Part shown: one piece after another, positions 34,026 through 59,344 of the stretch
Layout: each line of letters begins with the position of its first letter
Position numbering within the stretch: position 1 is the first letter of the stretch
Notes under the pieces: model-generated
Seen by the model: only the letters and a program-made list of their open reading frames with translations
What the model was told of the DNA's origin: nothing
Databases searched by the model: none
Position numbers and translations under genes: made by a program
NCBI GenBank assembly: GCA_035606695.1
Contig: DATNEW010000039.1
Location: 62,001-126,000, forward strand
Direction of reading: 5' to 3'
Source of the DNA: Gemmatimonadaceae bacterium
Lineage (GTDB): Bacteria; Gemmatimonadota; Gemmatimonadetes; Gemmatimonadales; Gemmatimonadaceae
DNA: 64,000 nt

Positions 34026-34065
34026 AGCGTTACGGTGATGGTTGTTTGCGTAACGCTTCGGTAAT
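34026..34065. promoter_or_regulatory. Inverted and direct GTAAC repeats before the first pseudopilin pair
   Basis: AGCGTTAC (34026-34033) and GTAACGCT (34050-34057) form an 8-bp inverted repeat, and GTAAC at 34050 is followed by GTAAT at 34061, 11 bases on. SARP regulators bind direct repeats with 11- or 22-bp spacing, so this is a possible target of the SARP-type protein at 39990-44150. Confidence 0.45.
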
Positions 34066-34156
34066 GCGTCTAGAGTAGGCTTATGGTTGATCGGAACGAA
34101 AAGCTGGGCATCTCATGCCCCGCCAGCGATCGCCGGACACTTCGCTCGCATTACAC

Positions 34157-34822
34157 ATGGCCTGTACGCCCCTGAATCGTTCTCGACGGCGCGTCGGATT
34201 TACGTTGATCGAAACGATCGTGACGGTCGGCCTCATCGCGGTCATGGCCGCGTTCGTGGTGCCGACGGTCATTCAGAAGGCGGGTTCGGGCGATCCGGTA
34301 AAGGTTCAAAACGATTTGAATACGGTCCGGACGGCGATGGAGACGTTCGCCACGGACATCAAGAACGGATATCCGCATCAGATTTCGACGCTGACGGCTA
34401 AGCCGACGGCGGGAATCGATCGGTTCATCGACAGCACGCTCATGACGACGTCACAGGTGGCCGCGTGGAACGGGCCGTATCTTGCCGCCACGATCACGGT
34501 CGCGGCGGGAGACAGCCTGGCGACCGGTTACACCGCGTACATCATGAACTTCCTGGACCGCTACGATCTGGACCACAACGTCGCAGAGCATCGGATCGAC
34601 GGTTCTCTGAATCCCGCATTCTCGACCGCCGGAACCCTGTTCGCCTCCGTCCAGGTCCACGGTCTCACGACGTCACAGGCCAACGCGCTCAATGCGATTT
34701 TTGACGGCGGAGCTGATCCAAATCAGCACGACCGCTCGAACACCACCGGCCGGTTTCGGTTCGGGGTGCCCAACTCATCGAACATCGTGGTCGCCTACTA
34801 CATGGCCGATCCCATCACCTGA
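34157..34822 (+). CDS. Type II secretion/pilus pseudopilin, GspG-like
   Basis: A secreted pseudopilin of about 221 residues. The class-III leader ends RRRVG, with FTLIE following (Glu at +5), and a hydrophobic N-terminal helix carries on to VVPTVIQ. The GspG-like part includes TAMETFATDIKNGYP and WNGPYL. ATG 34157 gives a 14-residue leader; ATG 34115 would add 14 residues, and neither has a strong ribosome site. It would be cleaved by a prepilin peptidase encoded elsewhere. 15 bases separate it from the next pseudopilin. Confidence 0.85.
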   Translation: MACTPLNRSRRRVGFTLIETIVTVGLIAVMAAFVVPTVIQKAGSGDPVKVQNDLNTVRTAMETFATDIKNGYPHQISTLTAKPTAGIDRFIDSTLMTTSQVAAWNGPYLAATITVAAGDSLATGYTAYIMNFLDRYDLDHNVAEHRIDGSLNPAFSTAGTLFASVQVHGLTTSQANALNAIFDGGADPNQHDRSNTTGRFRFGVPNSSNIVVAYYMADPIT

Positions 34823-34837
34823 TCGAGAGTGACCTCC

Positions 34838-35569
34838 ATGACGCAGTCGAGACAACGATCGAGACAACGATCGACACGGCGACCGAGACACGTGGTTCGG
34901 GCGCGCGAAGGCTTTACGCTGATCGAGACGGTCGTTACGGTCGCGCTGATCGCGGTTCTTGCCGCGTTCGTCGTGCCTTCAGTCATGAAGAAAGCCGATG
35001 CCGCGGATCCCGTGAAGGTCGCGAACGACCTGAACTCGATCTCAACCGCGATTCAATCCTTCGCGTCCGACGTCAAAGGGGCGCTCCCGGGCGATCTCGA
35101 GGATCTCACTGATCCGTTGCTCACGAATGCGGCGTGCAACTCCGGCAATCCCTGCGATTCCACCGTGACGCACGCCGACATCTACAGCCCGCAGCAGGTG
35201 CGTCTCTGGAAGGGGCCGTACCTCAGTCTGTCGTTGTCGGCGGATCCGACGACCGCGGTGCGCAGCGGGTACGTCGCCGAAATTCACAATATGCTAATGC
35301 GGTTCGACGCGATCAGCGGCGTACCCGAGTTCTGTGACGGTGTGGGTACGGCGACGGTGCCATGCGCTGGTTTTGTCGCGACAAATCCGCTCTACGTGGC
35401 GGTGCGTGTGGACAGCCTGACCTTGGCGCAGGCACTGATCGTGAACGGGATCATCGACGGTCCGAACGAGACGCAGCCAGGATTGCAGGGTCGGTTTCGC
35501 TTTCCGACTCCGTCGTTGCCGACGAAGATTGCGTCCCCAGCGTACTTCCTGGCGGCTCCCGTACCGTAA
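34838..35569 (+). CDS. Pseudopilin, GspG-like
   Basis: A 243-residue pseudopilin. The leader is unusually long, about 25 residues, very basic (SRQRSRQRSTRRPRH, from a tandem 12-mer in the DNA), and ends REG; FTLIE follows. The mature part shows DLNSISTAIQSFASDVKGALP, WKGPYL and two Cys pairs (CNSGNPC and CDGVGTATVPC) that may form disulfides. Paired with the pseudopilin just upstream. ATG 34838 is chosen over GTG 34829. Confidence 0.85.
   Translation: MTQSRQRSRQRSTRRPRHVVRAREGFTLIETVVTVALIAVLAAFVVPSVMKKADAADPVKVANDLNSISTAIQSFASDVKGALPGDLEDLTDPLLTNAACNSGNPCDSTVTHADIYSPQQVRLWKGPYLSLSLSADPTTAVRSGYVAEIHNMLMRFDAISGVPEFCDGVGTATVPCAGFVATNPLYVAVRVDSLTLAQALIVNGIIDGPNETQPGLQGRFRFPTPSLPTKIASPAYFLAAPVP
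34847..34870 (+). repeat. Tandem 12-mer in pseudopilin leader
   Basis: TCGAGACAACGA occurs twice in a row and encodes SRQR-SRQR in the basic leader of the pseudopilin. Confidence 0.55.
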
Positions 35570-35871
35570 CAAAAAGGTACAGCGGCTCGGGTTGCGGCGG
35601 CCTGGTGCCGATACTAACCTATGGGCGCTCATACCTGTAATGCCGACGAATGTCGACATGTGATATTTGTGACGCTGACCGGGTTGCTTTTGGCCGGACC
35701 CGGAGAGAATGTTAAGGGCTGTTGAGCAGAGTTAACTGCCGCGAGTATGAAGTAAGGAAAGCGGTAGTCGTTTGTAACCGGCGTCACTGCATCGGCGAGC
35801 ATGGGGTCACATTTTCCTCGGCTCTCGCCCATGCATCAACTGATTTCTCTCTCAAGGTAGAGACTTCGACG
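35570..35871. other. 302-base intergenic region before the repeat lipoprotein
   Basis: No gene or tRNA is visible. It holds GTAAG at 35752 and GTAAC at 35774 (22 bases apart), an inverted repeat CCGGGT/ACCCGG at 35679-35703 and the palindrome TGTCGACA (35651-35658). Probably a promoter region for the lipoprotein gene; the GTAAC repeats echo those at the pseudopilin promoters. Confidence 0.4.
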
Positions 35872-38691
35872 ATGATCTCTCTCCGTTCGCTGTTCACCCT
35901 GTCCGCTGTTGCCGCGCTGTCCGCCTCGATTTCGGGCTGCGGTGACCTCTCCAGCAATCCGCTGACACGCGCGCTGCAGCCAGGCAGCGCCAACCTCGAT
36001 GGCTCGGTCGGGTGTACGGGCAACGCTTGTAAGAACGGCGACATCGACGTGCGCGTGCTCGCCGACAAAGTCGGCAACGCGGTGATCGTCGTCCACACGG
36101 GGACGTTCGATCCGAGCACCGGGACCGCGGTGCCGAACGGCTACTTCCAGACGTTGCAGTACAAGGTCTACAACGACGCCGGCAAGCAGGTGCTGGTGCG
36201 CAACGTCAACTTCAACAAGTCCAACACCACCGTCTACAGCGCACCGATCCCGCTGTGCGCCGGCAACGGATCGGACGACGACGACGACAATGGCTCGTCG
36301 TCCTTCGCATCCTGCGGCACGCACTTCGGCGCCAAGTGGAAAGTCTCCGTTCAGGCGAACGTGAAGGGCGTCGGCGGCGACGACAAGAAGACGGCGGTCG
36401 TGCGCGAAGACGGCGTGAACGGCTACCTGCCGGACGTCGATCTCTCGCACCAGGCAATCACGGTCGTCAGCGCGAATCAGTCGAACGGAGTACCGGCCGG
36501 CTCGCCCGTGCAGTTCACGGTGAACGTCCCAAACGAGGCACCGACGACGCCCACGGGCCCGGGGGTCTTCCCGGTGCAGACGGCGTGCGTCGTCACGGTC
36601 GACGGCAACATTCAGCTTGCTGTCCCGAACGTGGTGATCCTAGGGCATCCGACGAATCCCTTCGCGTTTTCGTACGTCACGGGTCCGCTGCTCAGCATTC
36701 CGGCGAACGGCCACCTTCCCTGCACGTTCAACCTCACGCTTCCCGCCGGCCCGCATACGATCGTCGTGACTGCGGCGCCCGTCATTCCCGGCGATTTCGA
36801 TTACAGCAACAACAGCACGCAAACCTTCACGTTCACCGCGTCGAACCAGCCGACCGACATCGCCGTGGGAGGCGTGCAGGTCGACTACCTCGACGGTGCG
36901 GGTCCGGGCAATCTGGCGAACAAGCCAATCACGGCCGGCCAGACGGTGCAGCTCGATCAGCTGATCACGCTCGTGAGCGGCGCGGCACCGGGCGGCACTA
37001 TCTCGTGCTCCGCGACCATCACGGATCCGAACGGCGTTGCGACGACGTTGACGGGCAGCACGCCCGGATCGGCAACCGCGTGTAAGTTGACGAATTATCG
37101 TTTTGCCATCGCCGGCGACTACACGTATACGGCCACGATCTCGACGACCCCGGCCGATGCGAACGCGGCGAACAACACGACCGCCGCGATCACCATTCAT
37201 GCGTCGGCGCCCACCACGGCGATCAGCGCGGTGGTGCAGAACATCTCGCTCGTCACGCCGACGCAGAACATCGTACTGCCGGCCAACCCGGATACGGTCG
37301 TGCACGCGGGCCAGCTCGTCACGTACTCGGCCGATGTCAGCTCGTCTCTCGTCGGCTTGTCGACGAGCGCGGTCACTTGTCACGCCTTCATCGACGGTGG
37401 CGACTCGACAGCCAAGGTCCAGTGGATCGCGCAAACGATCACCGCAACGACCGGCGCGACGATTCAGCCATGCAGCTTCAAGGCGGCAATCGCCGAGTCC
37501 AACACGTCGGCCGCCGGCGCGACGCACACCGTCGGCGTGCAGGTGACGACGGCCACGGGCTTGCTGAACCTGTCGCCGCCGGCGCCGGGACAAGGCACGC
37601 CGTTTTACACGGTGAACGTGCATGTCGCGACGCGCCTCGACATCAGCGCCGGCGCATTCACGATCGTCGGCAAGACGCGGTTGCTCACCGACACCACGAT
37701 CAAGCAGGGTGCGACGGCGACGTTCCAAACGACCGTGACGGGACCGGCGAACACGCAGGTGAGCTGTGGCACGCTCGTCACTGCGCCGAGCGTGAACGAT
37801 CCGACGGTGATCGGCAATTTGACGCCCACGACGCTCACGACCACGAACGTGACGCTCACGAACGGAAGCGGCGTCTGTCAGTATTCGGTCATTGCGCCGT
37901 CGAACCTTGGTCTCGCGTCGATTCCGCTTCAGGCCAGCATCGCGGCCGTGAACACCACGGCTCTGGATCCGACGCCGGCCAATAACATCGCGGCGGGCAC
38001 ACTGACCATCAGCAGCAACGGCCAGTTCACGTCCCTGCCGAATCCGTCGGCGGACGCGATCGACATCGAGCAGTCGTGGGTCAACGGACCGACGATCCCG
38101 GACACGCAAATCGGCACGCTCTCGACGCAGCAGTTCTCGGTGAAGCACCTCGCGCTGATCGTCATTCCGACGCAGAACATTCTCGGCACGTTCAGTTTGT
38201 CGGGTACGGTCACGAGCGACACCGCTTCGGCGACGCCGGTCAACTTTGGCACCGGCACGGTGAGCGGCACACTGCAAGCCGCCGTTTCGCGCGGAGAAAA
38301 CTGTCAGTCGGTGAACATCGTGAACGGGCCGCTCAACCCGCCGAACGAGCCGCTGAATACGAGCGGCACGAACGCCCTGGGCTTCTCTGCGTCGGTGTGC
38401 GCGGTGGACAACGGGAACGGCTTCCAGACGATCACCGTCGACTATGCCCAGGCGCTGACGGGACCGATCGCCGGGTCGGCCAATCCGCTGCTGTTCAAGA
38501 ACAACGTGCGCATGCGCATCGTGCTGGGCTTCACGCTCACGGGCTCGACTCACGCCGATCAGGTGAGCGCGACTGTCCCGGTGACGGTCACGAGCTTCCT
38601 CGGCGGTCCGTGCACGTCGGCGACGGGCGATGAAAGCGATCCGCGGACATGCGGCACGGCGTTCACCCTCGGAAACGTCACAACGCCATAA
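35872..38691 (+). CDS. Large repeat lipoprotein with CARDB/Ig-like modules
   Basis: A 939-residue lipoprotein (lipobox SISGC near residue 23). It starts with a domain containing Cys-rich loops and a run of five Asp residues (DDDDDNGSSS) and continues with several Ig-like/CARDB-like modules of about 110-130 residues: for example VPAGSPVQFTVNVPNEAP, ITAGQTVQLDQLITLVSG and VVHAGQLVTYSADVSSS, each ending with strands such as ANNTTAAITI. The protein sits between pseudopilin pairs and is a likely substrate or surface partner of the pilus/secretion system, though no experiment shows it. ATG 35872 is chosen since it opens the signal peptide. Confidence 0.8.
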   Translation: MISLRSLFTLSAVAALSASISGCGDLSSNPLTRALQPGSANLDGSVGCTGNACKNGDIDVRVLADKVGNAVIVVHTGTFDPSTGTAVPNGYFQTLQYKVYNDAGKQVLVRNVNFNKSNTTVYSAPIPLCAGNGSDDDDDNGSSSFASCGTHFGAKWKVSVQANVKGVGGDDKKTAVVREDGVNGYLPDVDLSHQAITVVSANQSNGVPAGSPVQFTVNVPNEAPTTPTGPGVFPVQTACVVTVDGNIQLAVPNVVILGHPTNPFAFSYVTGPLLSIPANGHLPCTFNLTLPAGPHTIVVTAAPVIPGDFDYSNNSTQTFTFTASNQPTDIAVGGVQVDYLDGAGPGNLANKPITAGQTVQLDQLITLVSGAAPGGTISCSATITDPNGVATTLTGSTPGSATACKLTNYRFAIAGDYTYTATISTTPADANAANNTTAAITIHASAPTTAISAVVQNISLVTPTQNIVLPANPDTVVHAGQLVTYSADVSSSLVGLSTSAVTCHAFIDGGDSTAKVQWIAQTITATTGATIQPCSFKAAIAESNTSAAGATHTVGVQVTTATGLLNLSPPAPGQGTPFYTVNVHVATRLDISAGAFTIVGKTRLLTDTTIKQGATATFQTTVTGPANTQVSCGTLVTAPSVNDPTVIGNLTPTTLTTTNVTLTNGSGVCQYSVIAPSNLGLASIPLQASIAAVNTTALDPTPANNIAAGTLTISSNGQFTSLPNPSADAIDIEQSWVNGPTIPDTQIGTLSTQQFSVKHLALIVIPTQNILGTFSLSGTVTSDTASATPVNFGTGTVSGTLQAAVSRGENCQSVNIVNGPLNPPNEPLNTSGTNALGFSASVCAVDNGNGFQTITVDYAQALTGPIAGSANPLLFKNNVRMRIVLGFTLTGSTHADQVSATVPVTVTSFLGGPCTSATGDESDPRTCGTAFTLGNVTTP

Positions 38692-38790: not shown

Positions 38791-39426
38791 ATGCGAATGA
38801 AGCCAAGTCGAAGACGATCGGGATTCACTCTCGTCGAGATCGCCGTAGCCGCGGTGATTCTCGCGCTCCTGGCTGCCGTCACCACGCCGTATTTGATCGG
38901 GTTCATCGACAAGCAGCGCGCGCAAACGACGGCGGACAAGCTTGCGGCGCTTGCCACGGGCATCGCGGCGTTCAACTCCGCTGTCCACGCGACGGCGACG
39001 TTGACGACCACGACGATGTATCCCGGCCGCCTGTCGGAGCTGACCAACGTCATCGTCACGAACACGACCGCGTCACACACGAGCTGCGGCACCGCGACCG
39101 CGACACTCTCGACATTTACGACGACGGCCGTCACGAGCTGGAACACGAGCGCCCCGTTCGTCACGTTCATGATCACGACGAATGGCGTCGAGACCCCCAT
39201 GGGCATCATCATGGATTCCATCGTGCGAACGAGCATCACGAATCCGCCGACGCCCACGACGCTGCAGCTCAAGATCATCGGCGCCGACTCCACGGATGCG
39301 CCGCTGCTCGACCGAATCGTCGATGGCGGCGACGGCGCCTCCGCGGGTGTGGTGCAGTGGGTCGCGAACGCCAACCCCGCGCTCGTCGATATCAAGTATT
39401 TCATTCCGGCAGGTGGCAAATGCTGA
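38791..39426 (+). CDS. Pseudopilin with C-terminal Cys
   Basis: A 211-residue pseudopilin: leader MRMKPSRRRSG, then FTLVE and a hydrophobic helix (VAAVILALLAAVTTPYLI). The mature part is Thr-rich and lacks the WxGPYL motif of the others, so it may be a minor pseudopilin. The protein ends AGGKC, with Cys as the last residue, and has one more Cys (SCGTATA). Its stop overlaps the next pseudopilin by 7 bases (ATGCTGA). Confidence 0.83.
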   Translation: MRMKPSRRRSGFTLVEIAVAAVILALLAAVTTPYLIGFIDKQRAQTTADKLAALATGIAAFNSAVHATATLTTTTMYPGRLSELTNVIVTNTTASHTSCGTATATLSTFTTTAVTSWNTSAPFVTFMITTNGVETPMGIIMDSIVRTSITNPPTPTTLQLKIIGADSTDAPLLDRIVDGGDGASAGVVQWVANANPALVDIKYFIPAGGKC

Positions 39427-39977
39427 CGCGCGCACATCGCCGCGGCGGCTTTACGCTCGCCGAAGTGCTGGTCTCCTTCGCGTTGATCGCGGTGCTCGCG
39501 GCCGTCATCGTTCCAACGATTCGCGGCCGTTTGCAGGGTGGATACGAGGATGCACTCGTGCAGGAAATCGACAATCTGTCGAGCGCGGTGATCGCCTACC
39601 GGCAGGACGTCGGACACTATCCGCCGAACTTCGACTATCTCACGGCGCTGCCGGCGACGCCGAAGGACAAATGCGGCGTCACACTCAGCGCGACCGCGCA
39701 GGCGAACTGGCGCGGCCCGTACGTCACGCGCGCCATTCTTCCGTTCGGCGTGTTTCTGGTGGCGCAGAAAGACAGCGTCGTCGACACGCTGTACACCGCG
39801 ACGTCGCCCACTGGCCTCATCATCCGAATCAAGGGTCCGGATACGCTCACGGCGCACAACATCGACGTTGTCTTCGACGGTGTGAACAACAAAGGCACCG
39901 GTTCGCTCCAGTGGACTCCCGGAACGAACGACGTCGTGATGGACTACATCATTCCCACGAAGAGCGGGGCGTGCTGA
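39420..39977 (+). CDS. Pseudopilin, GspG-like, with C-terminal Cys
   Basis: A 185-residue pseudopilin: leader MLTRAHRRGG, then FTLAE and helix. Mature part: DNLSSAVIAYRQDVGHYPPNF and WRGPYV, as in GspG. Like its upstream partner it ends in Cys (KSGAC) and has one internal Cys (KDKCG), so each could form an internal disulfide or pair with the other. Coupled to the previous gene by overlap and convergent with the SARP-type gene, whose end lies 12 bases away. Confidence 0.85.
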   Translation: MLTRAHRRGGFTLAEVLVSFALIAVLAAVIVPTIRGRLQGGYEDALVQEIDNLSSAVIAYRQDVGHYPPNFDYLTALPATPKDKCGVTLSATAQANWRGPYVTRAILPFGVFLVAQKDSVVDTLYTATSPTGLIIRIKGPDTLTAHNIDVVFDGVNNKGTGSLQWTPGTNDVVMDYIIPTKSGAC

Positions 39978-39989
39978 CGTCTCTCGCGC

Positions 39990-42900
39990 TCAGCGCGAGC
40001 GAGCGCGGGGCGCGGGCTGATCGAGCGTGACGTTCGAGATGGCGACGCTGCTTCCAGTCGCCCGTCCGCCCATCCACCATTGTGCGACAGTCTCTTCGCC
40101 CGTCGAGCCCAGGAAGCTGAGGCTCGACTTCCAGCGCTGGGTGCCGTCGATCGCGAACACCACCGAGCGATCTGCGCCGACGCTGACGTCGATCGTATGA
40201 CGATCGCCCGCGCCCGTTGCCGCGGCAGGTTCGGAGAAGTTTTCAGGTCCGACGCTGTAGGTGAGGTTGCCGGAGGCGCCATCCCACGCGACAGTCACGA
40301 GCGGCGTGAATTGCGGCGCACGTCGGTCGATCGAGCCTTCGGCGGCTGCCGCGACGAAGCCGAGCATCAACGTCGTCGCTGACGGCCGGCCGGTGAACGG
40401 AGCTGTCACTCGCACGCTCGCGTGCAACCCTGGACGAAGGGCCATTGCGGACCGCAGCAACAATCCGCTGTCCCATTCAAGGTCGCCGTTCGGGAAAACC
40501 GCGGGCGCACCGTCGCTCGTACGTCCGGTGCGCGGCAACGGAACTCCGAGCGGCAACCAGCTCGAATCGATTCGCGCGAAGCTGTCGTTGAAATGCAACG
40601 CCTGATTTGAACTGACCAAGAGCGTCAGCGTATCAGCGCGCCATCCGGGAATCGACGCGATCACGCGGGCGCTACCGGTACCGCGCGCGACCACGGATAT
40701 CATACTTGCGGAGTCCGCGGCATTCGACTGCAATTGTGTTGCCTCGCGGCCTTGTACCGACCACTGCACAGGGACATCGCGCAGCGGACTGTTCGCCGGA
40801 GTGAGCGCGATGAATCCGAGGCGCGCCGTGTCGCCGACGGCGATCGATCTCGGCCCGACGATTCTGAGTCGATCGATGAACTGCGGCCGCCCGCCTGACC
40901 ACGACGCAATCGAGAACTGCCGGCCCGCGGGAGTCAGCCGCTTCGGTGTTCCGCCGAGCGACGGACGCGCATAGACGGCGCGATCGCCGTCGCGGACCGC
41001 TTCGAATGCGATCGAGCGCCCGTCCGGTGAAAAGACGGCGTGCGATTCGCCGGAACGATCCGAGATCGGCCACAGACGCTTGTTGTCGAAGTCATACACG
41101 TACAATCGCGAGCCACCGCCATCTCGCTGGCTCGTGAATGCCAGCAGCGAGCCGTCAGGCGACCACGCCAGCTCGTAATCGTCAGCGGAATTCGACGACA
41201 CGTTGAGAACGTCGCTGCCGTCGGCGCGCGAGACGAAGACGTCGCGCTGTCGTTGCGACCCGACGCGCGCCACCCACGCCACGCGATCGCCCGTGGGCGA
41301 CCACGCTGCCTCGGCAACCGCTCGGCTCGATGAGGTGTCGATTGGAACGGCGAGCGCGGGCGCACCAATGGTGACGCGCCAAAGATCCGTGTCGAGGCTG
41401 CCATCGACGAGAAGACGCGATCTCGAGACGAGCAACGATCGGCTGTCGGGAGACCACGCCAAACCAATGTTGTCGCCGGGTGTCGTGGATACGAGCGACG
41501 TGTCGCGTCGATCCACTCCGACGACGAGCAGCTGTTCGCCTTCGGGCGTCACGCGTTGCAAGGCGACGCGTTGACGATCTGGTGAAACGAGTCCGCCAGT
41601 CCATGGCGACGCGAGCGAATCCAGCCACGCCGGCGCGAACAATCCAGCGGCGGCGGCGATCGGCGTCCCCGTCGATCGCTCGCGTCGAGGATTGCGAATC
41701 AGCTCCAGCGCGGCGCGGCCCCGCGCATCGCGCTCGGTCAGTACGAGCGTGTCGGAAACATTTCGCGTGGAGGCGCGCGCGAGAACGATAGGGCGCGCGT
41801 AATATCCGGCGAGGGCGATCGCCAACGATGCGGCAATCGACACGACCCATTGCCGCGTCGAGGCAGGCCGCCACAGCGATCGCCGCGAGCGCACATCCGT
41901 TGGCGGCGCGGGTTCCGCGCGGCTGAAGGACACATCGTCATCGCGAACGGCGTTGTCGTCGGCGACCGGTGTACTTTCGACGCTCGGCGCGAGATCCGCG
42001 GAAGCGCCGTGGTCGCGCGCACCCGGAAGGGTGAGCCGGGTGCGGCCGAACGCGGTCAAAAGCGAGTCGACTTCGCGACGCGCGGCATCCGTCGGCGCGA
42101 ACGTCAGCGCGATGCCAAGGAGCCGTGCGACTTCGCTCGATGCGCCGATCGCGGCGGCGGCAAATGCCGCGGCGCGCGCGCGAATGAACGCATCGCCGGC
42201 GCGGCCGGCCATTGCGTAGAGTGACGCGAGCTCCGCGTCCGACGCATCGTGCTCGGCGGCGAGTGCGTCCGCGGCCCACGATGCAAGCACCGCGCGACCC
42301 GCGAGCCCGCTCGCATCGACGAGAAAACCTTGCGTCACGTCGTGAGCGACGGCGTATCCATCATCCGTCGCGCGCAGATAGCCAAGACGCAGCAACACTT
42401 CGACGGCCTCGTACGCAGCTGCTTCCGGCAGATGCGCCGCGGCCGCGAGCACGCGAAGATTCGCCGATCGTTCGAGCAGCGATGCGGCGAAGAACGTTCG
42501 CCGTTGCGACGGCGACAGCGCCTGGAATCGTGCCCATAGAATGTCGCGCAGGGAGGCCGGCAGTTCAGTCGTCGGTGTGCCGCTCGCCGTTCGTCGCGCG
42601 AGCTCGAGGATCGCGAACGGCCGGCCCCCGGATGCACGCACAACGCGATCGACGTCCGCGTCGGTCGTGCGACCGACACCGCGCAGGACGGCGCGTGCGA
42701 GCGCCAGCGACTCGTGATCGTCGAACGCACCGAGTGCGATCGAGGTGCTGGCGTTTCCGTCGACGTCGCTCAGGGCACGCAACCGTTCCACGGCGGCGCC
42801 TACGACTCGCTCCGTACGGTATGACGCGATGAACAACACGGGAGATTCGTGCAGCCGGCGCGAGAGATACACAAACAGGTCGATCGTCGACGGCGACGCG

Positions 42901-44150
42901 TGATGCATGTCGTCGACGATGACGCAGACTGGCCGTTCATACGCCGCTGCGTCGATCAGCGCCGCGATTCCCTCGAAGAATCGGAGCCGTCCCGTTTCGT
43001 CTTCGATGGGAGACGCGGCCGGCAGATCGAACGCATCTCGCAATTCAGGAAGAAGTCGCGCCGCCTCGGCGAGGAGATGCTTGCTGGCGCCTGCGACACC
43101 GGATGCGCGCACGATTGGTCGCAGCGCGTCGACGAGGCCTGCGTACGGAAGCACACCTCCAAGCCCGGCCTCACGCCCGCGCAAGAGCAGCACGCCGCCG
43201 AGGTTTCGCGCGCGGTCGGCGAATTCTTCGAGCAGTCGCGACTTGCCGATGCCGGCTTCGCCCTCGAGCAGCACTGTCGCGCCGCGCTCGTGTTTGAGAC
43301 CCGAGATGAGGGCCAGCATTCGCGCGAGCTCGGATTCACGGCCGACGAATGGAGCCTTTCCCGGCTCCGCCGAAATGCCGCTGCTGGGCGTCTGTTGGTC
43401 GCGTGCGCCGTGACGCTCGAGGCGCTCGACGAGTGCGCGCAGCGTGGCGGAGGGCGCGAGATCGAATTCGTCGCGAATTCGATCGATGAATTGGCGCAAC
43501 GTCGTGACGGCCTGCCGCGACTTGCCCGCGGCGACCAGCGTGTTGGCCGAAAAGAGCGCGGCAGACTCATCGTACGGCGCCGTGGTCGTCAGGCGATTCG
43601 CGTGGTCGAGCGCGTCGGACAGACGGCCGTCGGCGAGGGCGGATTCGCCGGCGGCCAACAAGGCTTCCTGGTATCGCGCGCGCAATCGGACCCGCTCGGC
43701 ATCGGCCCAGCGATCGAACGCGGGCTCGCCGGACTCGAAGCCCTCGAGAAACTCCCCGCCGTACGCGTTGATCGCGACTTCCCAATGTCCGGTCTCGAGC
43801 GCGGCGAGGAACTCATCGCGATCGGTCGACAGGATGCCGTCGGCGGACAACGCGACCTGGTCTCGGTCCTGAGGGAGCACCGTGTCGCCGAGTATGGTGC
43901 GCAATCGGTGGAGTGACTGCCGGAAGGCGTTTCGTGCGCGTTCCTCTGGGACTTCTCCCCAGAGGATACTGATCAGTTCGTCCCTCCTGGCCGGCCCTCG
44001 GACGGAGATGTAAGCCAGAATGGCAAGCGACTTACCGGCGCCGAGCTCAGCGGTGCCGTCCGCCGTGCCGAGTCCCGGGGAGCCAAGCAGACTCAACCGG
44101 AAATTTACGCTTGACGGGGAAGGCTGTGACGATGAATCGGACGGGGTCAT
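39990..44150 (-). CDS. Giant membrane-bound SARP-type regulator with AAA, PD40 and lectin-like domains
   Basis: A 1386-residue protein. Residues about 16-110 form an OmpR-like DNA-binding domain (SILWGEVPEERARNAFRQ), 115-245 the BTAD domain; together these define SARP regulators. An AAA ATPase follows (P-loop EGEAGIGKSR near 295; VIVDDMHHASP as Walker B) with a helical part to about 740. One membrane helix lies near 768-790 (VVSIAASLAIALAGYYA). Outside it are PD40/TolB repeats (about 840-1100: AWSPDSRS, AWSPDGS, FSPDGRS), an Ig-like domain and a C-terminal lectin/LamG-like domain (FNDSFARIDSSWLPLG). A one-component sensor passing surface signals to DNA is the likely role. Divergent from a pseudopilin pair. 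Confidence 0.85.
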   Translation of the reverse strand: MTPSDSSSQPSPSSVNFRLSLLGSPGLGTADGTAELGAGKSLAILAYISVRGPARRDELISILWGEVPEERARNAFRQSLHRLRTILGDTVLPQDRDQVALSADGILSTDRDEFLAALETGHWEVAINAYGGEFLEGFESGEPAFDRWADAERVRLRARYQEALLAAGESALADGRLSDALDHANRLTTTAPYDESAALFSANTLVAAGKSRQAVTTLRQFIDRIRDEFDLAPSATLRALVERLERHGARDQQTPSSGISAEPGKAPFVGRESELARMLALISGLKHERGATVLLEGEAGIGKSRLLEEFADRARNLGGVLLLRGREAGLGGVLPYAGLVDALRPIVRASGVAGASKHLLAEAARLLPELRDAFDLPAASPIEDETGRLRFFEGIAALIDAAAYERPVCVIVDDMHHASPSTIDLFVYLSRRLHESPVLFIASYRTERVVGAAVERLRALSDVDGNASTSIALGAFDDHESLALARAVLRGVGRTTDADVDRVVRASGGRPFAILELARRTASGTPTTELPASLRDILWARFQALSPSQRRTFFAASLLERSANLRVLAAAAHLPEAAAYEAVEVLLRLGYLRATDDGYAVAHDVTQGFLVDASGLAGRAVLASWAADALAAEHDASDAELASLYAMAGRAGDAFIRARAAAFAAAAIGASSEVARLLGIALTFAPTDAARREVDSLLTAFGRTRLTLPGARDHGASADLAPSVESTPVADDNAVRDDDVSFSRAEPAPPTDVRSRRSLWRPASTRQWVVSIAASLAIALAGYYARPIVLARASTRNVSDTLVLTERDARGRAALELIRNPRRERSTGTPIAAAAGLFAPAWLDSLASPWTGGLVSPDRQRVALQRVTPEGEQLLVVGVDRRDTSLVSTTPGDNIGLAWSPDSRSLLVSRSRLLVDGSLDTDLWRVTIGAPALAVPIDTSSSRAVAEAAWSPTGDRVAWVARVGSQRQRDVFVSRADGSDVLNVSSNSADDYELAWSPDGSLLAFTSQRDGGGSRLYVYDFDNKRLWPISDRSGESHAVFSPDGRSIAFEAVRDGDRAVYARPSLGGTPKRLTPAGRQFSIASWSGGRPQFIDRLRIVGPRSIAVGDTARLGFIALTPANSPLRDVPVQWSVQGREATQLQSNAADSASMISVVARGTGSARVIASIPGWRADTLTLLVSSNQALHFNDSFARIDSSWLPLGVPLPRTGRTSDGAPAVFPNGDLEWDSGLLLRSAMALRPGLHASVRVTAPFTGRPSATTLMLGFVAAAAEGSIDRRAPQFTPLVTVAWDGASGNLTYSVGPENFSEPAAATGAGDRHTIDVSVGADRSVVFAIDGTQRWKSSLSFLGSTGEETVAQWWMGGRATGSSVAISNVTLDQPAPRARSR

Positions 44151-44440
44151 CGGTGCCGTTGCGGAGCGCGCGAAGTAACAGCTCTAACCGTCGTAATGAC
44201 TGCTATTTATGAACGCCGTAACACCGACTGATGGCTGCCTAACGGCGACATAACGCCGTGTTGCGATAATTCCCTCGTCATCGCGGTCCCGGAGGTTGTG
44301 GCCCGGTACTGTTTCCCATGGGCGCCGATGCCATCGTGATGCGGTCGTAAGTAGCGTAACGCGAGGCGTAACCCCAAGCCAAACATGATCGTCCACGATT
44401 GTCTACGCGAAGATTCCTTTTGAGTGTTTGTGAGAATGCC
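44151..44440. promoter_or_regulatory. Divergent SARP-pseudopilin region with phased NTAAC/T repeats
   Basis: 290 bases without a gene. NTAAC/NTAAT occurs at 44175, 44184, 44193, 44218, 44239, 44250, 44347 (GTAAG), 44356 and 44368; neighbouring copies are 9, 11, 12 or 21 bases apart, about one or two helical turns. Such clustering is unusual in GC-rich DNA. It may be the operator of the SARP-type protein encoded to the left, controlling itself and the pseudopilins to the right. Confidence 0.5.
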
Positions 44441-45070
44441 ATGACCCAGCGAATCGAAAAAGTCAGCCGGCGTCGCGGATTTACGCTTCCGGAAGTCCTC
44501 GTCACCGTGAGCCTGGTCGCGATCTTGGCAGCCGTAGTCGTGCCCGCCATTGCGGGTCAGATTCGCAAGGGCGATCAGTCGCGCATCGGGAATGACATGT
44601 TGGCCATCCGTGGCGGCGTGGAGCAGTTCCTGTCGGACGTTCGCCGGTACCCGTCTGACGTAACGCAACTCGTCACGCCGATTACCACGACTCAGTCTCC
44701 GCTGACCGGAACTGGCCTGGGAACGTACGGCAAGCCGGACACGCTCCGCTGGCGCGGACCGTACCTGAGCAAAGACGCTGCGTCGATTCTCGGAACGGGA
44801 TACGGCTACAGCTTCAAGAGCACCTTCTTCAATCAGTCGCTCACGGCGAACAGTGCCGTGCCTGGTAGCGGTGCGGGTTATCAAGCGTATCTGGTGCTGT
44901 GCCTTCCAATGAATCCCACGGGCAGCACGGCCACCACCGATGCCTCGAACGCGCTCACCATCGACCAGATGTTCGATGACGGCGACATCACCAACGGGGT
45001 GATTCGCTACATCTCGCCGGGCGGCGGCCACGCCGACACGCTCAAGTTCCTCGTCATGCCCATTTATTGA
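44441..45070 (+). CDS. Pseudopilin, GspG-like
   Basis: A 209-residue pseudopilin with leader MTQRIEKVSRRRG and FTLPE (Pro at +4, as in GspH-like and MSHA pilins), then a hydrophobic helix. The GspG-type part has DMLAIRGGVEQFLSDVRRYP and WRGPYL. ATG 44441 is chosen for leader length; an ATG 42 bases upstream has no family support. First of a pair with the gene at 45150. Confidence 0.86.
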   Translation: MTQRIEKVSRRRGFTLPEVLVTVSLVAILAAVVVPAIAGQIRKGDQSRIGNDMLAIRGGVEQFLSDVRRYPSDVTQLVTPITTTQSPLTGTGLGTYGKPDTLRWRGPYLSKDAASILGTGYGYSFKSTFFNQSLTANSAVPGSGAGYQAYLVLCLPMNPTGSTATTDASNALTIDQMFDDGDITNGVIRYISPGGGHADTLKFLVMPIY

Positions 45071-45149: not shown

Positions 45150-45704
45150 ATGAAGAACCGAGTTCGCCGCGGCTTTACGCTGCCTGAAGTCCTCGTGACC
45201 GTGACGGTCGTCGCCGTGCTGGCGGCCGTGGTCGTTCCCGCCGTGACCCAGTACGTCAACAAAGGCGACACGCCGGTGTTCCAGCAGGACCTCAGCGAAA
45301 TCCGCAACGCCGTGACGGCGTACATCGCGGACAACCGCTCCTTCCCGGCTGAATTCTATGATCTGACGGCGGCCGGCAATTCGGGCGGCAAGATCTACTT
45401 CGCCGGCAGCGTGACCGGCACGTCGACGGCTGTTGCGTCGTTCACCAGCGCCGGCGGCATCACCCTCGGACCCGCCATCACGTCCGCCAATGGCTATCTG
45501 ACGACGCCGCTCGCGTTCTCGACCGGCGCGAGTGCGACCTGCAACGACATCTATCAGCTGGACAAGACGATCGACGGCACGGTCGACGGCACGAACGGCA
45601 ACGTGCTGTATGACGGGACCACATGTACGGGCGCGGCCTCCACGAACAGCACGGCGATCGGAAGCACGGTAATCACGCTCCGCCTTGCGGCGACGGGCAC
45701 CTGA
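45150..45704 (+). CDS. Pseudopilin, candidate major subunit
   Basis: A 184-residue pseudopilin. Its leader is the shortest of the six (MKNRVRRG, then FTLPE), and the ribosome site AAGGAGAAAACC is the best in the locus, hinting at high expression, so it may be the major subunit. It has one Cys pair (SATCNDIY and TTCTGA) near the C-terminus. Followed by a strong terminator shared with the convergent operon. Confidence 0.87.
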   Translation: MKNRVRRGFTLPEVLVTVTVVAVLAAVVVPAVTQYVNKGDTPVFQQDLSEIRNAVTAYIADNRSFPAEFYDLTAAGNSGGKIYFAGSVTGTSTAVASFTSAGGITLGPAITSANGYLTTPLAFSTGASATCNDIYQLDKTIDGTVDGTNGNVLYDGTTCTGAASTNSTAIGSTVITLRLAATGT

Positions 45705-45814: not shown

Positions 45815-46333
45815 CTACGGCCGTACGGTTCGCGCTTGCACGATCAACTCGGCAACGGTGCGTCCGACGCCGAAGCGCTTCATGATCGCTTCGATCGAGA
45901 GCGAGTCCACGTTCACCGGCAGCTGGTAGAACACCACCGCGTTCGCGCCCGGCGCTCGGGCATCCTGCGTCGCGTGCTCGAGCGTGAGACTCGCGGACGA
46001 CAGCACGGCTTGCAGTGCAACCGATACCGGGACGTTGGTCAGGTGAACGCGCACCTTCCGCGCGACGCCTTGGCCATACACGAGCTTGAAGTTGCCCATC
46101 GAGCCGATGTAATCCAGCACGGTGCGTATGTCGACTTCACTCCCGTGCGTGTCGATGCTGATCAGCGGATCGTTCACGGAATCTACCGGCGACAGACTTC
46201 GCGTCTCGGTGAGGACCGGCGGGGAGAGCTGCTGGGCCGGCAACACGGGCGGCGGAACGGCCGCGGGCGAATGGTGACATGCCGCGGCAATCACCAGCGC
46301 CGCAACGCCGCCGACTATGTGATGCGATTTCAT
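45815..46333 (-). CDS. STN-domain lipoprotein (secretin/TonB short N-terminal domain)
   Basis: A 172-residue lipoprotein (AAACHHS lipobox near residue 19) with a Pro-rich linker and an STN-like domain (about 55-125: IDTHGSEVDIRTVLDYIGSMGNFKLVYGQGV, HLTNVPVSVALQAVL), normally the N-terminal domain of secretins. Here it is a separate gene at the end of the secretin operon, overlapping the TPR gene by 4 bases. It may bind the secretin or act as a pilot-like factor; this is inference. Confidence 0.8.
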   Translation of the reverse strand: MKSHHIVGGVAALVIAAACHHSPAAVPPPVLPAQQLSPPVLTETRSLSPVDSVNDPLISIDTHGSEVDIRTVLDYIGSMGNFKLVYGQGVARKVRVHLTNVPVSVALQAVLSSASLTLEHATQDARAPGANAVVFYQLPVNVDSLSIEAIMKRFGVGRTVAELIVQARTVRP

Positions 46334-47610
46334 GGATAGAGTTTGCGGAGCGAGTTGACGTACGCTCTGACTTTCTCGATCTCGTCCGGAGGAACGGCGC
46401 CGGGCGCGAGGTCGAGAAACGACTGCATTTCGCGAATGGCGCTGTGGAAGTCGTGCTGCGCGACCAGGAATGCGCCGAATGCGTAGTGGGCGCGTGCATC
46501 CTTGGGAGCGAGTCCGAGCGCTTCCGTGAACCCGCGGCGCGCGCTTGCCGTGTCGCCCAATGCTTGATACTCCGTGGCGAGACGAATCTTCAGGCTCGAG
46601 TTGGCCGGATCGAGCTTGGCCGCCGCAAAGAACGCCGACATCGCATCCGCGTGTCGGCCGAGTGCGTTGTACGCGACGCCGATGTTCATCCAGAGCTTCG
46701 GATCGCGATCGTTTGCGGCGAGGCCGAGCCTGTACATGGTGATCGCGGCGGTGTGATTGCCGCGCAGATCGAGGAGCGCGCCATAATCGTTGTACAACTC
46801 GGGCGGCACCGGCGGCTTCTGCAGTGCTTTCTCGTAGTAGTCGGCGGCGGCGTCGTAGTTCCCGCGCAGGTGCTCGCTGTACGCGCGGGCGAAGAGCGAA
46901 TCGCCCAAGCGCGCGCCGTTGGCGTCGAGTACGACACGCACCGGTGCGGGTGTGGGCGTGGGCGCCGTCGTGGGCGGCGCCGGACGCGGTGGAGCGTCCG
47001 CGGCTGCCGCGACGTTCGATGCCGCGCGCGCCGCGCTGTCCGTACGATCGGCAGTGACGGAGGCCGCCGTCGACGGGGCCGGCAGCGGCTTGATGCCAGT
47101 ACTGGTATTACGATTTTGTGATGGCGAATTCACCGCGCGGCTGGGCGGCGCACTGGATACCGGCGAGGGTGCGCCGGCGTCGCGGATCGCTCTGCCGCTA
47201 GGCTCAGCAGCGCCACTTCGCTGATTCGACGCCGTCTTCGTCCCCATCTTCGCCGGCGGAATGATTGAAATCGGAACGGCCGGCTGGCTCGGCGGCGGTG
47301 TGGTCGGCTGCGGCACCGCCGGCACGCCACTCGGGCGCTGGCTCGCGACGGGTCTCGCGGTCGGAACGGCGAGCGACGACGCCCGTCCTGCACGCGAGCG
47401 AGCCCGCCACAGTCCCGCCGCTCCGGCCGCCAAGATCACAGCGGCGGCCGCGAAGACCATCAACGCGCGGCTGGTGCTGCTGCTCCTGTTGTTCGCGGAC
47501 TTGCCCGCGGGATACGGAAAAAAGTTGTCACCGACGGCGGCCGCCGTTCGTCCCGCGCGCTGTGTGCGCTCGCGCTGCGCTTCCTTGAGCGCGTCGTTGA
47601 TGAGACTCAC
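46330..47610 (-). CDS. MshN/GspB-like membrane TPR protein
   Basis: A 426-residue protein beginning SLINDALKEAQRER, the GspB/MshN N-terminal motif, then a membrane helix (about residues 48-66) and a long Pro/Ala/Thr-rich periplasmic linker. The C-terminal part carries TPR repeats (AGLFARAYSEHLRGNYDAAADYYEKAL-like units up to about residue 410). GTG 47610 overlaps the ATPase stop (GTGA) and gives the family N-terminus. It corresponds to MshN in MSHA order. Confidence 0.83.
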   Translation of the reverse strand: MSLINDALKEAQRERTQRAGRTAAAVGDNFFPYPAGKSANNRSSSTSRALMVFAAAAVILAAGAAGLWRARSRAGRASSLAVPTARPVASQRPSGVPAVPQPTTPPPSQPAVPISIIPPAKMGTKTASNQRSGAAEPSGRAIRDAGAPSPVSSAPPSRAVNSPSQNRNTSTGIKPLPAPSTAASVTADRTDSAARAASNVAAAADAPPRPAPPTTAPTPTPAPVRVVLDANGARLGDSLFARAYSEHLRGNYDAAADYYEKALQKPPVPPELYNDYGALLDLRGNHTAAITMYRLGLAANDRDPKLWMNIGVAYNALGRHADAMSAFFAAAKLDPANSSLKIRLATEYQALGDTASARRGFTEALGLAPKDARAHYAFGAFLVAQHDFHSAIREMQSFLDLAPGAVPPDEIEKVRAYVNSLRKLYP

Positions 47611-49070
47611 GGCTTCGGTCCTGCGGGCGGCCGGGCCGCGGATGGTTTCGCTGTCGAATCGCGCGGCGTGGCCGGCCGTGCGGCGAGCGAATCGGCGGCG
47701 ATCGAACCGCCGCTCGTTGCGGCGCGCCCGGCGCAAACGGCGGATACCGTCTGCGCATCGCGCGCAAGCAGGGGATTTGCCGCCGACGCCGAATCAACGC
47801 CGGCACCGTATCCGTTGCACGCGGCGGTCGTATCACCGCCGTCGAGTTGAGCCACGGCCGTGAGCACGACGGCGCGTGCGTGCGTGACTCCTGCCGGCGC
47901 GTGCTGAGCGAGTGCGGCGAGGTGTTGCACGGCGCTCGCGCGGTCGCCGCGCGCCATCTCGAGTTGCGCCAGGCGAAGCAGTGCATCGTCGACGCGTTTG
48001 GACGTCGGATACGTCGCGACCAGTGTCCGCAAATCCCGCTCGGCGTCGGCGGGCACGGCGCTCATGGTGGCGCGCCAGTACAAATCCTCGTCGGCGGCCT
48101 TCACGGGACCGCGCGGCCAGAGTGCGATGCCAACAGTCACCGCCGCCACGACGAGCACCGCGGCGATGATCATCACGCGCCGTATCTGTCCGCGGCGCTG
48201 GTTGCGGGGACGATCGCGGCGCGGTGCGGGCGCGGTGACGTTTTCGTCGACTTCGGAATCCTCACCACGCAACGCCGCCACGGCCTTGCGGACGTGCTGC
48301 GGTTCGATGTCACGCGTCTGCGCGGCGTATCCGGCCAGCAGCGCCCGGTCGCAAATCAGATTGATCAAGCGCGGAACGCCGTGGCTCGCGCGATAGATCT
48401 CCGTCACCGCCTTCGGTGTGAAGCGAATCTGGCCGCGCGCGCCCGCCACGTTCAACCGGTGGTGGATGTAGCGGTCGGTCTCCTGCTCGTCGAGATCGTT
48501 CAGCGTGCAGCGGATCGACACACGCTGGTCGAGCTGCGCCATTTGCGGCGTGCGGATCTTGTCGAGCAGCTCCGGTTGGCCGACGAGAACAATTTGAATG
48601 AGCTTTTCCTGATCGGTCTCGAGATTCGACAGCACGCGAATCTGTTCAAGAAACTCTGACGACAGGTGCTGTGCTTCGTCGAAGATCGCGACGCAGCTTT
48701 TTCCCAGCGCGAGTTGCGCGAGCAGGAACTGGTTGAGCCGATCGAGCAATTCCTTGCGCGAACCGCCCGGCGGCACGCTGACGCCGAACTCCGTGAGGAG
48801 CGCGGCCAGCGTCTCGACACCGTTGAAGAACGGATTGAAGATCAGCGCCGACTGCGACTTGTCGCGATCCAACTTTTCGATGAGATCGCGGCACAGCGTC
48901 GTCTTGCCGGTGCCGGGCTGGCCAGTGACCAGCATGAACCCTTCCCGGTTGTTGATGCCGTACAGCAGCTGGCCTTCTGCCTCGCGATACTGTTGCGAGT
49001 AGAAGACGAACCGTGGGTTCGGCGTCAGCGAGAAGGGCTTGTCGGTCAGCCCGTAGAACTGCTCGTACAT
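47607..49070 (-). CDS. ExeA/MshM-like AAA ATPase with membrane helix and periplasmic tail
   Basis: A 487-residue protein. Residues 1-270 form an ExeA/GspA-type ATPase: FYGLTDKPFSLTPNP, Walker A GQPGTGKTT (near 50), Walker B AIFDEAQH and HGVPRLINLICD. A membrane helix lies at about 298-318, followed by a TPR-like periplasmic segment and a Thr/Ala/Pro-rich end. Partner of GspB/MshN, with which it usually inserts the secretin into peptidoglycan. 4 bases follow the secretin gene; its stop overlaps the next gene. Confidence 0.9.
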   Translation of the reverse strand: MYEQFYGLTDKPFSLTPNPRFVFYSQQYREAEGQLLYGINNREGFMLVTGQPGTGKTTLCRDLIEKLDRDKSQSALIFNPFFNGVETLAALLTEFGVSVPPGGSRKELLDRLNQFLLAQLALGKSCVAIFDEAQHLSSEFLEQIRVLSNLETDQEKLIQIVLVGQPELLDKIRTPQMAQLDQRVSIRCTLNDLDEQETDRYIHHRLNVAGARGQIRFTPKAVTEIYRASHGVPRLINLICDRALLAGYAAQTRDIEPQHVRKAVAALRGEDSEVDENVTAPAPRRDRPRNQRRGQIRRVMIIAAVLVVAAVTVGIALWPRGPVKAADEDLYWRATMSAVPADAERDLRTLVATYPTSKRVDDALLRLAQLEMARGDRASAVQHLAALAQHAPAGVTHARAVVLTAVAQLDGGDTTAACNGYGAGVDSASAANPLLARDAQTVSAVCAGRAATSGGSIAADSLAARPATPRDSTAKPSAARPPAGPKP

Positions 49071-49074
49071 GCCG

Positions 49075-50859
49075 TTAACGTCCCGATGCGGGCTGCCCGC
49101 TGATGATCGTTGGCGTCAGGAACACGACGAGCTCCGTGCGCGTCTCGGTATTGTCGATGTGCTGGAACGCCTTGCCAAGCAGCGGAATGTCCTTGAGCAC
49201 CGGAATGCCGCTGGTGGTTTGATCCTTTCGATTCTGTACGAGGCCGCCAATCACCATGGTCTCACCGGCGCGCATGCGTGCGATCGTATCGCCCTCCCGG
49301 CGTGCGATCACCGGCGCGCTCGCCGTGGTGCCGTCGGGCAGCGAGATCGTGGCGGTGTGATCGATCGACGTCACGGCCGGACGAATGTCCATGGTCAACA
49401 CGTTGTCCGCCGAAATCTGCGGCAGTACGTCGAGGACGACGCCGACCGAGATCTGCTGCGGAATGATCGAGCTCTGTGTCGTCACGACGCCGCCGTTGGG
49501 CCCAAGCAACGGCGTCCGCGACACGTTGAAGAATATCTCGTCCGTGGTCACGTCAAAGATGGCGCGCTGATTGTTGAGCGCCGAGGTCTGCTCGTTCGAC
49601 AAGACGCTGACGTTGCCTTCCGACGCCAACGCCGTGAGTACGGCAGTGACCGACGTCGCACCACCCGTGAACGTGAAATTGATGTTGCCGGCGTTTCCGG
49701 TCGTGGTCACCGACGGATCGCTGCGCAGCGTCACGCCGAACTTGTTGGAAGCCGCCGCCGAGACGATGCTCCAGTCGATGCCGTACTGGAAGGTCTTGGT
49801 CAGCGTGACTTCGACGATCTTCGCTTCGATCATCACCTGACGGAGAACCGACGCCTGAAAGTCGTCGAGAAACTCCTGGACGCGGGCGACTTTATCCGGC
49901 ATGGCCGTCACGTTGATCAAGCCCGCCATGGGGCTGATCACCAGCGACGATCCGTCGCCGAACACGGTGTTCGAGGCAGACGGACCGCCGCCCGCACCGG
50001 ACGCCGCCTGCTGCGCGGCGTTGATCCCGCCCGTCGACGTCTGCGATTCGCCCGCCGCACCAGTCGTCGGCGCGTTCGCGTTGTTCGCGTTGCCCGACGC
50101 TGTGCCCTGCGCCGGCTGGCCCGACGCCATGATTCCCGTGAGCGCGACGCGGATATCCTGCCACACGTCCGCGACCGATTGCGCCGTGAGCACGTCGCCG
50201 CCGCTGGCCGCCGCCGCGGCGCCGGCGCCGAGCGCGCTCAATCCGGTGTTCGTGCCCGGTGTTGCGACACCCGCACTCGACAACCGTCGCTGCACGACTG
50301 TGCTCATTGTGCCGATACGCGACAGCGCGACATAATCGAGATGAAACGTGTGACTCTCCATGCGAATGGGAACGACACGCAGCACGGTTCCTTGCAGCTG
50401 ATACTGCGCACCGTTGCGCGAGACCAACTCGTGCAGCGCCTCCTCGAGCGTGACATTGCGCAAATTCGCGTGCGCGGTGCCGTGCACAGCGGGATCGACG
50501 GTCACCGTCAATCCGAGCTGCGATCCGAGCTGCGTCACCGCCGTCGCGATGGGAGTTCCATCCGGGACATTGATCTCGCGGATGCGACGCTCGGGCGCGG
50601 CCGACAACTGCGGTCCGGCAGCCGTCGCCACTTGAGGCAACGCCGGCGCCGCTCCCGCAGGTTGGCCTGGTTGCGAGACACTCACCGCAGCTGGGCTTCC
50701 CTGCGGTTGAACGACCGGTGCCGTCGGTTCGACGTGAACCGTGGTGTGCACCTGCCGAGCGGCCGCACCGCTGCTGGCGCACGCCGCGGCCGCCAGTCCA
50801 GCGGCGAACATCGTCGTCGTCCGGAGCGCTTGTAGCGCGCGAGTCATCGTCGACCTCAT
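49075..50859 (-). CDS. MshL-type secretin
   Basis: A 594-residue outer-membrane secretin lipoprotein (AAAACASSG near residue 25). Order: signal and Pro-rich linker, STN/N0-like domain (about 90-160), N1-like, an Ala/Gly/Asn-rich insertion (about 215-285), then the secretin core with VMIEAKIVEVTL and IPVLKDIPLLGKAF near the C-terminus. No N2/N3 ring repeats are obvious, as in MshL. It forms the channel for the pseudopilus or pilus. It starts on the stop of the PilP-like gene (ATGA). Confidence 0.92.
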   Translation of the reverse strand: MRSTMTRALQALRTTTMFAAGLAAAACASSGAAARQVHTTVHVEPTAPVVQPQGSPAAVSVSQPGQPAGAAPALPQVATAAGPQLSAAPERRIREINVPDGTPIATAVTQLGSQLGLTVTVDPAVHGTAHANLRNVTLEEALHELVSRNGAQYQLQGTVLRVVPIRMESHTFHLDYVALSRIGTMSTVVQRRLSSAGVATPGTNTGLSALGAGAAAAASGGDVLTAQSVADVWQDIRVALTGIMASGQPAQGTASGNANNANAPTTGAAGESQTSTGGINAAQQAASGAGGGPSASNTVFGDGSSLVISPMAGLINVTAMPDKVARVQEFLDDFQASVLRQVMIEAKIVEVTLTKTFQYGIDWSIVSAAASNKFGVTLRSDPSVTTTGNAGNINFTFTGGATSVTAVLTALASEGNVSVLSNEQTSALNNQRAIFDVTTDEIFFNVSRTPLLGPNGGVVTTQSSIIPQQISVGVVLDVLPQISADNVLTMDIRPAVTSIDHTATISLPDGTTASAPVIARREGDTIARMRAGETMVIGGLVQNRKDQTTSGIPVLKDIPLLGKAFQHIDNTETRTELVVFLTPTIISGQPASGR

Positions 50860-54679: not shown

Positions 54680-54707
54680 ATCCTCGAACGCTTATTCGTG
54701 TGTCATG

Positions 54708-57619: not shown

Positions 57620-57629
57620 GCCCCGGAAC

Positions 57630-59249: not shown

Positions 59250-59344
59250 GCGAGTGTTCCAGCGTAGGTGTACCTGGTGTCCCGAACGATAACCCGGGAT
59301 AAAACGACGGCGAGCCCAACGGTGGCGCAACGCCTACGGCCCGA

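Follow-up and report, generated by a model that had tools for sequence, protein, structure and literature searches.

The 64,000-nucleotide stretch of a Gemmatimonadaceae genome analysed here (contig DATNEW010000039.1, positions 62,001 to 126,000; hereafter the window) carries a pilus locus in which a single open reading frame of 1,386 codons, opening with ATG, encodes a membrane-anchored regulator of the SARP-STAND type. This protein probably sits in the inner membrane and, as a one-component activator, switches on transcription of the pilus subunit genes of the locus that encodes it; it is best read as a membrane-bound counterpart of AfsR, comparable to ToxR and TcpP, that drives the pilin genes. 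Activators like AfsR are known chiefly from antibiotic clusters, and in this other phylum one of them appears to have been remodelled into a transmembrane receptor that serves a single pilus system. Coordinates of all features are collected in Table 1.

Domain architecture and predicted topology

From its N-terminus the regulator comprises a SARP-type DNA-binding/BTAD domain, a STAND/AAA_16 ATPase, a helical arm, a linker, one membrane helix and an ectodomain. Pfam matches cover BTAD at residues 122-244 (E 9e-11), AAA_16 at 267-441 (E 6e-23) and PD40 in three stretches (E 7e-19), and homologues align along the full length at 57, 49 and 40% identity, with further ones added in wider searches. 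The N-terminal domain has the architecture of the SARP family, an OmpR-type winged helix followed by BTAD. Its Foldseek matches include the AfsR SARP domain within a transcription initiation complex (8k60; E 1e-7, TMt 0.72) and EmbR, the latter also recovered in a PDB sequence search (E 4e-5). One helix in it, ARNAFRQxLHRLR (residues 72-84), varies at a single position across the pilus clade and is likely the recognition helix. As in the large SARP and STAND proteins, a NOD-type ATPase with a GxxGxGKS Walker A motif stands behind the SARP domain, and the NOD and helical arm find Foldseek matches in the STAND protein 6mfv and in 8bob, a structure from maltose-system regulation. On the strength of these matches to AfsR, EmbR, 6mfv and 8bob, the inner half of the modelled protein (AlphaFold2, mean pLDDT 78.2) is predicted to be built like AfsR, with SARP domain, NOD and arm, minus the TPR end. 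The G011 orthologue (L004) carries arginine in place of the Walker A lysine (GPPGIGRT), so the NOD may not use ATP in every orthologue.

The ectodomain, about 590 residues long, was modelled with AlphaFold2 using 16 relatives and is almost all-beta and multi-domain (mean pLDDT 84.7). Residues 1-289 of this model form a propeller that matches TolB (VIA Z about 20, rmsd about 5.3 over 250 residues) as well as S9 peptidase propellers (Z up to 21.8), and a PDB sequence search also returned TolB (E 2e-11). The TolB model TIGR02800 of NCBIfam scores 81 bits (E 7e-23) against a cut-off of 343, which places the regulator outside the TolB family; the fold is shared, whereas the propeller of the regulator is membrane-tethered and continues into Ig-like and ConA-like domains. 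These two names are given because relatives match Big_2 and, below threshold, Laminin_G_3. Laminin_G_3 was found by Pfam in 3 of 16 relatives (best E 3e-4), is sub-threshold in L100 and is absent from the window regulator, in which neither domain has a Pfam call. A PDB profile search with the lectin-like domain gave weak matches only (calreticulin, a designed protein and a beta-glucanase). A sequence-only reading of this gene had proposed a propeller followed by Ig-like and lectin-like parts. The PD40 match, the model and the TolB match bear out the propeller, while the all-beta model and the matches in relatives sustain the other two as predicted folds, with 'lectin-like' holding only in that sense.

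The linker ahead of the membrane helix (residues 702-762) is disordered in the AlphaFold2 model. The orthologues, five relatives that lie outside pilus loci and one G005 paralogue all have a hydrophobic segment at the same position; its mean hydropathy is 1.85-2.4 in most relatives, 1.58 in the window copy, 1.41 in G005 and 1.39 in G137. In most sequences the 15 residues before the segment carry a net charge equal to or above that of the 15 residues behind it, G259 and G224 being the exceptions. A single helix and a DNA-binding N-terminus on the inner side place the propeller, by prediction, outside. The prediction reproduces the layout of ToxR-like membrane regulators, a cytoplasmic winged helix, a single membrane helix and an extracytoplasmic C-terminal domain, and agrees, by Pfam, hydropathy and AlphaFold2, with the one-component inside/outside topology proposed in the sequence-only reading. 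One could instead suppose that the segment is no anchor and that the whole protein is cytosolic, its propeller and sandwich serving as intracellular interaction domains, and the moderate hydropathy in the window, G005 and G137 copies and the only moderately biased flanking charges would suit such a protein. We consider this very improbable: the position of the segment is kept in orthologues and unlinked relatives, mostly at the higher hydropathy values, a disordered linker precedes it, and the folds beyond it are typical of exported proteins.

Membrane anchoring of a SARP is not unique to this gene. Among the 12 BTAD proteins of the window genome (5.9 Mb, 50 contigs), with the BTAD gene on C20 left unjudged, eight, the regulator included, have a membrane helix after BTAD, and the statement in the earlier reading that SARP regulators are cytosolic therefore fails in this phylum. 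The other seven (L102, L103, L104, L106, L108, L109 and L110) carry one membrane helix at about residue 285-333 and, like the regulator, mostly a long C-terminal part; unlike it, they have no AAA_16 or PD40 match, and several have TPR instead. Membrane-anchored SARPs may thus be a theme of the phylum.

Conserved linkage to the pilus locus

The distribution of the regulator follows that of the pilus system. Across 395 genomes of the phylum, high-scoring full-length matches to the ectodomain occur in nine, all of one family. Among 179 Gemmatimonadaceae genomes the pilus secretin is found in ten, nine of which are exactly the regulator-bearing ones; in the tenth, G429, the contig breaks off within the pilin gene that comes first behind the assembly genes, short of the place expected for the regulator. 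The regulator adjoins pseudopilin genes in all eight genomes in which the neighbourhood can be read, the G137 gene lying on a 3.3 kb fragment that shows no neighbours. Full-length orthologues stand beside pseudopilins of the same locus in G002, G005, G011, G120, G259, G066 and G119, with secretin, MshM/ExeA-like ATPase and TPR genes near them wherever the contig extends. Pseudopilin genes flank the gene in the window, and the one that begins at 44441 runs divergently from it, as had been proposed; the gene is also the sole regulator gene recognised in the locus. The association between regulator and pilus locus, whose loss in other genomes had been named as a refutation of the earlier reading, is conserved.

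The same domain order, which the earlier reading had proposed to look for beside pseudopilins in other genomes, was found there, though it is not confined to pilus loci. Relatives with SARP domain, in part the AAA domain, membrane helix and alignable ectodomain occur elsewhere in the phylum away from pilin genes (L125:9743-13846, L096:8217-12410, L098:6430-10530, L099:3-4088, L100:6440-10600 and L095:5736-10823), and we reject the domain order as pilus-specific. In G120, a second, divergent copy of the regulator (L094, on C232) likewise neighbours pilin genes, which hints that this genome has a second pilus locus under a regulator of its own.

Candidate operators at the pilin promoters

The 290 bp between the regulator and the divergent pilin gene, singled out earlier as a regulatory region (44151-44440), contain TAACG repeats that form a conserved candidate operator. 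Across eight orthologous regions, the best repeated 5-mer at periods of 8-23 is TAACG at 11 bp, present in seven of eight (maximum of four in 300 shuffles), and the spacing pair (21, 11) occurs in all eight divergent regions, with the next-best pair at three and 139 of 144 outer/inner pairs at zero. Nine bases past the last TNACG-type repeat, in a search that imposed no requirement on it, a hexamer has A at position 2 and T at position 6 in nine of nine divergent-region sites. A matrix trained on the divergent sites of other genomes and run over the window scored highest at 44216 (33.7 bits) and then at 34027 (21.9), the next match reaching 5.2; the 34027 match, absent from the training set, lies 33 bp ahead of the gene that opens the other pilin operon. 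G002, G005, G011, G259, G066 and G119 also have a second site before a pilin gene, with a looser middle repeat in G011 and G259. Together, 16 sites before the two pilin operons give the consensus GTNACG-N15-gTAACG-N5-GTNACG-N9-tAnnnT.

The exact pattern has 14 matches in ten whole genomes (about 36 Mb), all at pilin promoters, and a reversed control has none; the assembly-gene operon has no such site within the window. Over the 179 family genomes there are eight further scattered matches. The two of these inspected, in G129 and G071, have no recognised pilin or SARP gene nearby and were dismissed as chance. A pattern with an outer spacer of 18 N matched an unrelated conserved sequence (GTAACGGCGCATGTGG...TTGCGAGGTT) in four genomes of genus g7 (G011:C11:7372-7425, G259:C135:23258-23311, G137:C241:2076-2129 and G120:C238:10595-10648).

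According to work on AfsR, the direct repeats of SARP targets are spaced by 11 or 22 bp, and 8 bp separate the 3' repeat from the -10 element (PMC10936776), and SARP sites with three repeats are known (PMC10972967). The 16 candidate sites, with spacings of 11 and 21 bp and 9 bp to the tAnnnT box, are a close fit to this rule. From this fit and from the near-invariant likely recognition helix of the pilus clade, we infer that the regulator binds the repeats and activates the pilin operons. The repeats are assigned as binding sites from sequence, and they might be read by another, global regulator, with the membrane SARP controlling something else or only itself; a TAACG repeat (AATATAACG) overlapping the presumed promoter of the regulator gene in five genomes suggests that more than one factor could read the site. 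This is unlikely, given a pattern restricted to the pilus locus in ten genomes, which speaks against a global factor, repeat spacing near the SARP rule, a locus with one recognised regulator gene, and the shared presence and absence of regulator and pilus system.

The element AATATAACG is conserved about 5-12 bp from the regulator start codon and overlaps a TATATT box on the regulator strand (L024, L090, L091, L092 and L093), a position that suggests leaderless transcription and self-regulation of the regulator gene. Its overlap with the probable -10 box of that gene in G011, G120, G259, G066 and G119 would suit self-repression, and instead of activating pilins the protein might act as a repressor, or silence its own gene as an autoregulator. 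Such a role is decidedly unlikely as an alternative, as the main sites lie upstream of a -10-like box, where SARPs activate, and pilin activation and self-repression could coexist.

Proposed mechanism and the surrounding locus

In AfsR the SARP domain is inhibited by NOD and TPR until ATP binds (PMC10936776). By analogy, we propose that the STAND ATPase and helical arm would hold the SARP DNA-binding/BTAD domain off, that the single helix would tether the regulator to the membrane, and that the TolB-like propeller, Ig-like and ConA-like ectodomain would read an extracytoplasmic state, be it an envelope polymer or a pilus component. The ectodomain may then control release of the SARP domain across the membrane. 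Once switched on, the regulator would bind the tripartite direct repeats and recruit RNA polymerase at 44218-44270 and 34029-34081, and the two promoters would drive the pseudopilin operons. The signal may be a glycan, another polymer or a pilus component. A specific version, in which binding of a polymer or glycan by the propeller/Ig/lectin-like sensor triggers ATP-dependent SARP activation, so that an outside surface, once recognised, turns the pilin genes on through one protein and with no phosphorelay, is rather doubtful.

Several observations weigh against the main reading of the protein as a membrane-bound activator of the pilin genes. A number of sequences show only a modest bias in the charges that flank the membrane helix; the same architecture exists without pilus genes, so the type of ectodomain is not pilus-specific; the nine regulator genomes are related and are not fully independent events; the outer repeat spacing is 21 rather than 22 bp; and the repeats could belong to another regulator encoded outside the locus.

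Control of many well-studied pilus systems falls to two-component systems, to chemosensory systems or to small proteins of the ToxR kind. ToxR-type proteins have neither BTAD nor a STAND ATPase, and their periplasmic domains are small; the regulator, with BTAD and AAA_16, would work like ToxR and is not filed as a member of that family. In its predicted layout it shares with ToxR, TcpP and CadC (PMC8546550, PMC11323476, PMC5430869) an N-terminal DNA-binding domain, one membrane helix and a C-terminal periplasmic sensor, and ToxR and TcpP also act upstream of pilus genes, TcpP indirectly via toxT. With the large SARP AfsR of Streptomyces coelicolor (PMC10936776; PDB 8k60/8hvr) it shares the succession of SARP domain, NOD/STAND ATPase and helical arm and, in its candidate sites, a direct-repeat operator with an 11-bp unit just upstream of -10. 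AfsR as described, however, lacks a membrane helix and has a TPR sensor at its end, whereas the regulator has a membrane helix and a predicted extracytoplasmic propeller/Ig/ConA-like part, and its candidate repeats are, unlike those of AfsR, 21 and 11 bp apart. MalT and other STAND regulators have a similar ATP-dependent switch module, as the matches to 8bob and 6mfv indicate. MalT itself is cytosolic and has a LuxR-type DNA-binding domain.

Both kinds of protein are already known, the membrane one-component regulators (ToxR, TcpP, CadC) as well as the AfsR-like SARPs. In the open-access literature, subscription papers being outside its scope, we found no work joining SARP or BTAD with Gemmatimonadota or with membrane anchoring, and no description of a membrane SARP with STAND ATPase and propeller/Ig/ConA-like ectodomain tied to a pilus. 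The candidate operators, two per genome, make a sharp prediction, and they connect a predicted extracytoplasmic sensor with a STAND ATPase, such ATPases being studied mostly as switches in the cytosol.

Table 1. Features of the regulator and its pilus locus, in window coordinates
Feature	Position	Strand	Basis
Membrane-anchored SARP-STAND regulator, 1386 aa	39990..44150	-	ORF, Pfam, orthologues
SARP domain (winged HTH + BTAD), residues ~17-250	43401..44102	-	Pfam BTAD, Foldseek, conserved columns
STAND/AAA_16 ATPase (NOD) and helical arm, residues ~267-702, Walker A GEAGIGKS	42045..43352	-	Pfam, Foldseek
Predicted single transmembrane helix, residues ~765-793	41772..41858	-	Hydropathy, flanking charge, AlphaFold2 helix
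TolB-like (PD40) beta-propeller, residues ~799-1087, predicted extracytoplasmic	40890..41756	-	Pfam, AlphaFold2, TolB match
Ig-like (Big_2-type) domain, residues ~1088-1182	40605..40889	-	AlphaFold2, Big_2 match in relative L100
ConA/LamG-like beta-sandwich, residues ~1183-1386	39993..40604	-	AlphaFold2, Laminin_G_3 in relatives
Predicted SARP operator and promoter upstream of pilin gene 44441: GTAACA-N15-cTAACG-N5-aTAACG-N9-GATAAT	44218..44270	+	Repeat, matrix and pattern searches
Second predicted operator and promoter, upstream of pilin gene 34115: GTTACG-N15-gTAACG-N5-gTAATG-N9-TAGGCT	34029..34081	+	Matrix, site comparison
Pseudopilin, first gene behind operator 34029	34115..34822	+	N_methyl E 4e-4 (just under cut-off); 54-64% homologues, same place
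Pseudopilin	34829..35569	+	N_methyl
Large secreted protein, lipobox-like SISGC, between pilin genes	35722..38691	+	ORF; 34-37% homologues, same place, G002 and G005
Pseudopilin	38791..39426	+	N_methyl
Pseudopilin (probable start 39420), convergent with regulator	39357..39977	+	N_methyl, T2SSG
Pseudopilin, divergent from regulator, first gene behind operator 44218	44441..45070	+	N_methyl; start from sequence
Pseudopilin	45150..45704	+	N_methyl
Pilus/type II secretion system (T2SS)-like assembly genes	45815..56411	-	Pfam; gene order kept in relatives

The assembly genes comprise a T2SSE ATPase, a T2SSF platform protein, unassigned reading frames, a T2SSC-like protein, the secretin, an ExeA/MshM-like ATPase, a TPR protein and a small protein. 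The large secreted protein, whose true start is probably internal to the reading frame, has no clear Pfam family; it sits amid pilin genes in three genomes of the genus and may be an adhesin or tip protein associated with the pilus. A second PD40 propeller protein, which weakly resembles the regulator ectodomain, and an S41 peptidase lie upstream of the assembly genes (56567-57670 and 57630-59330).

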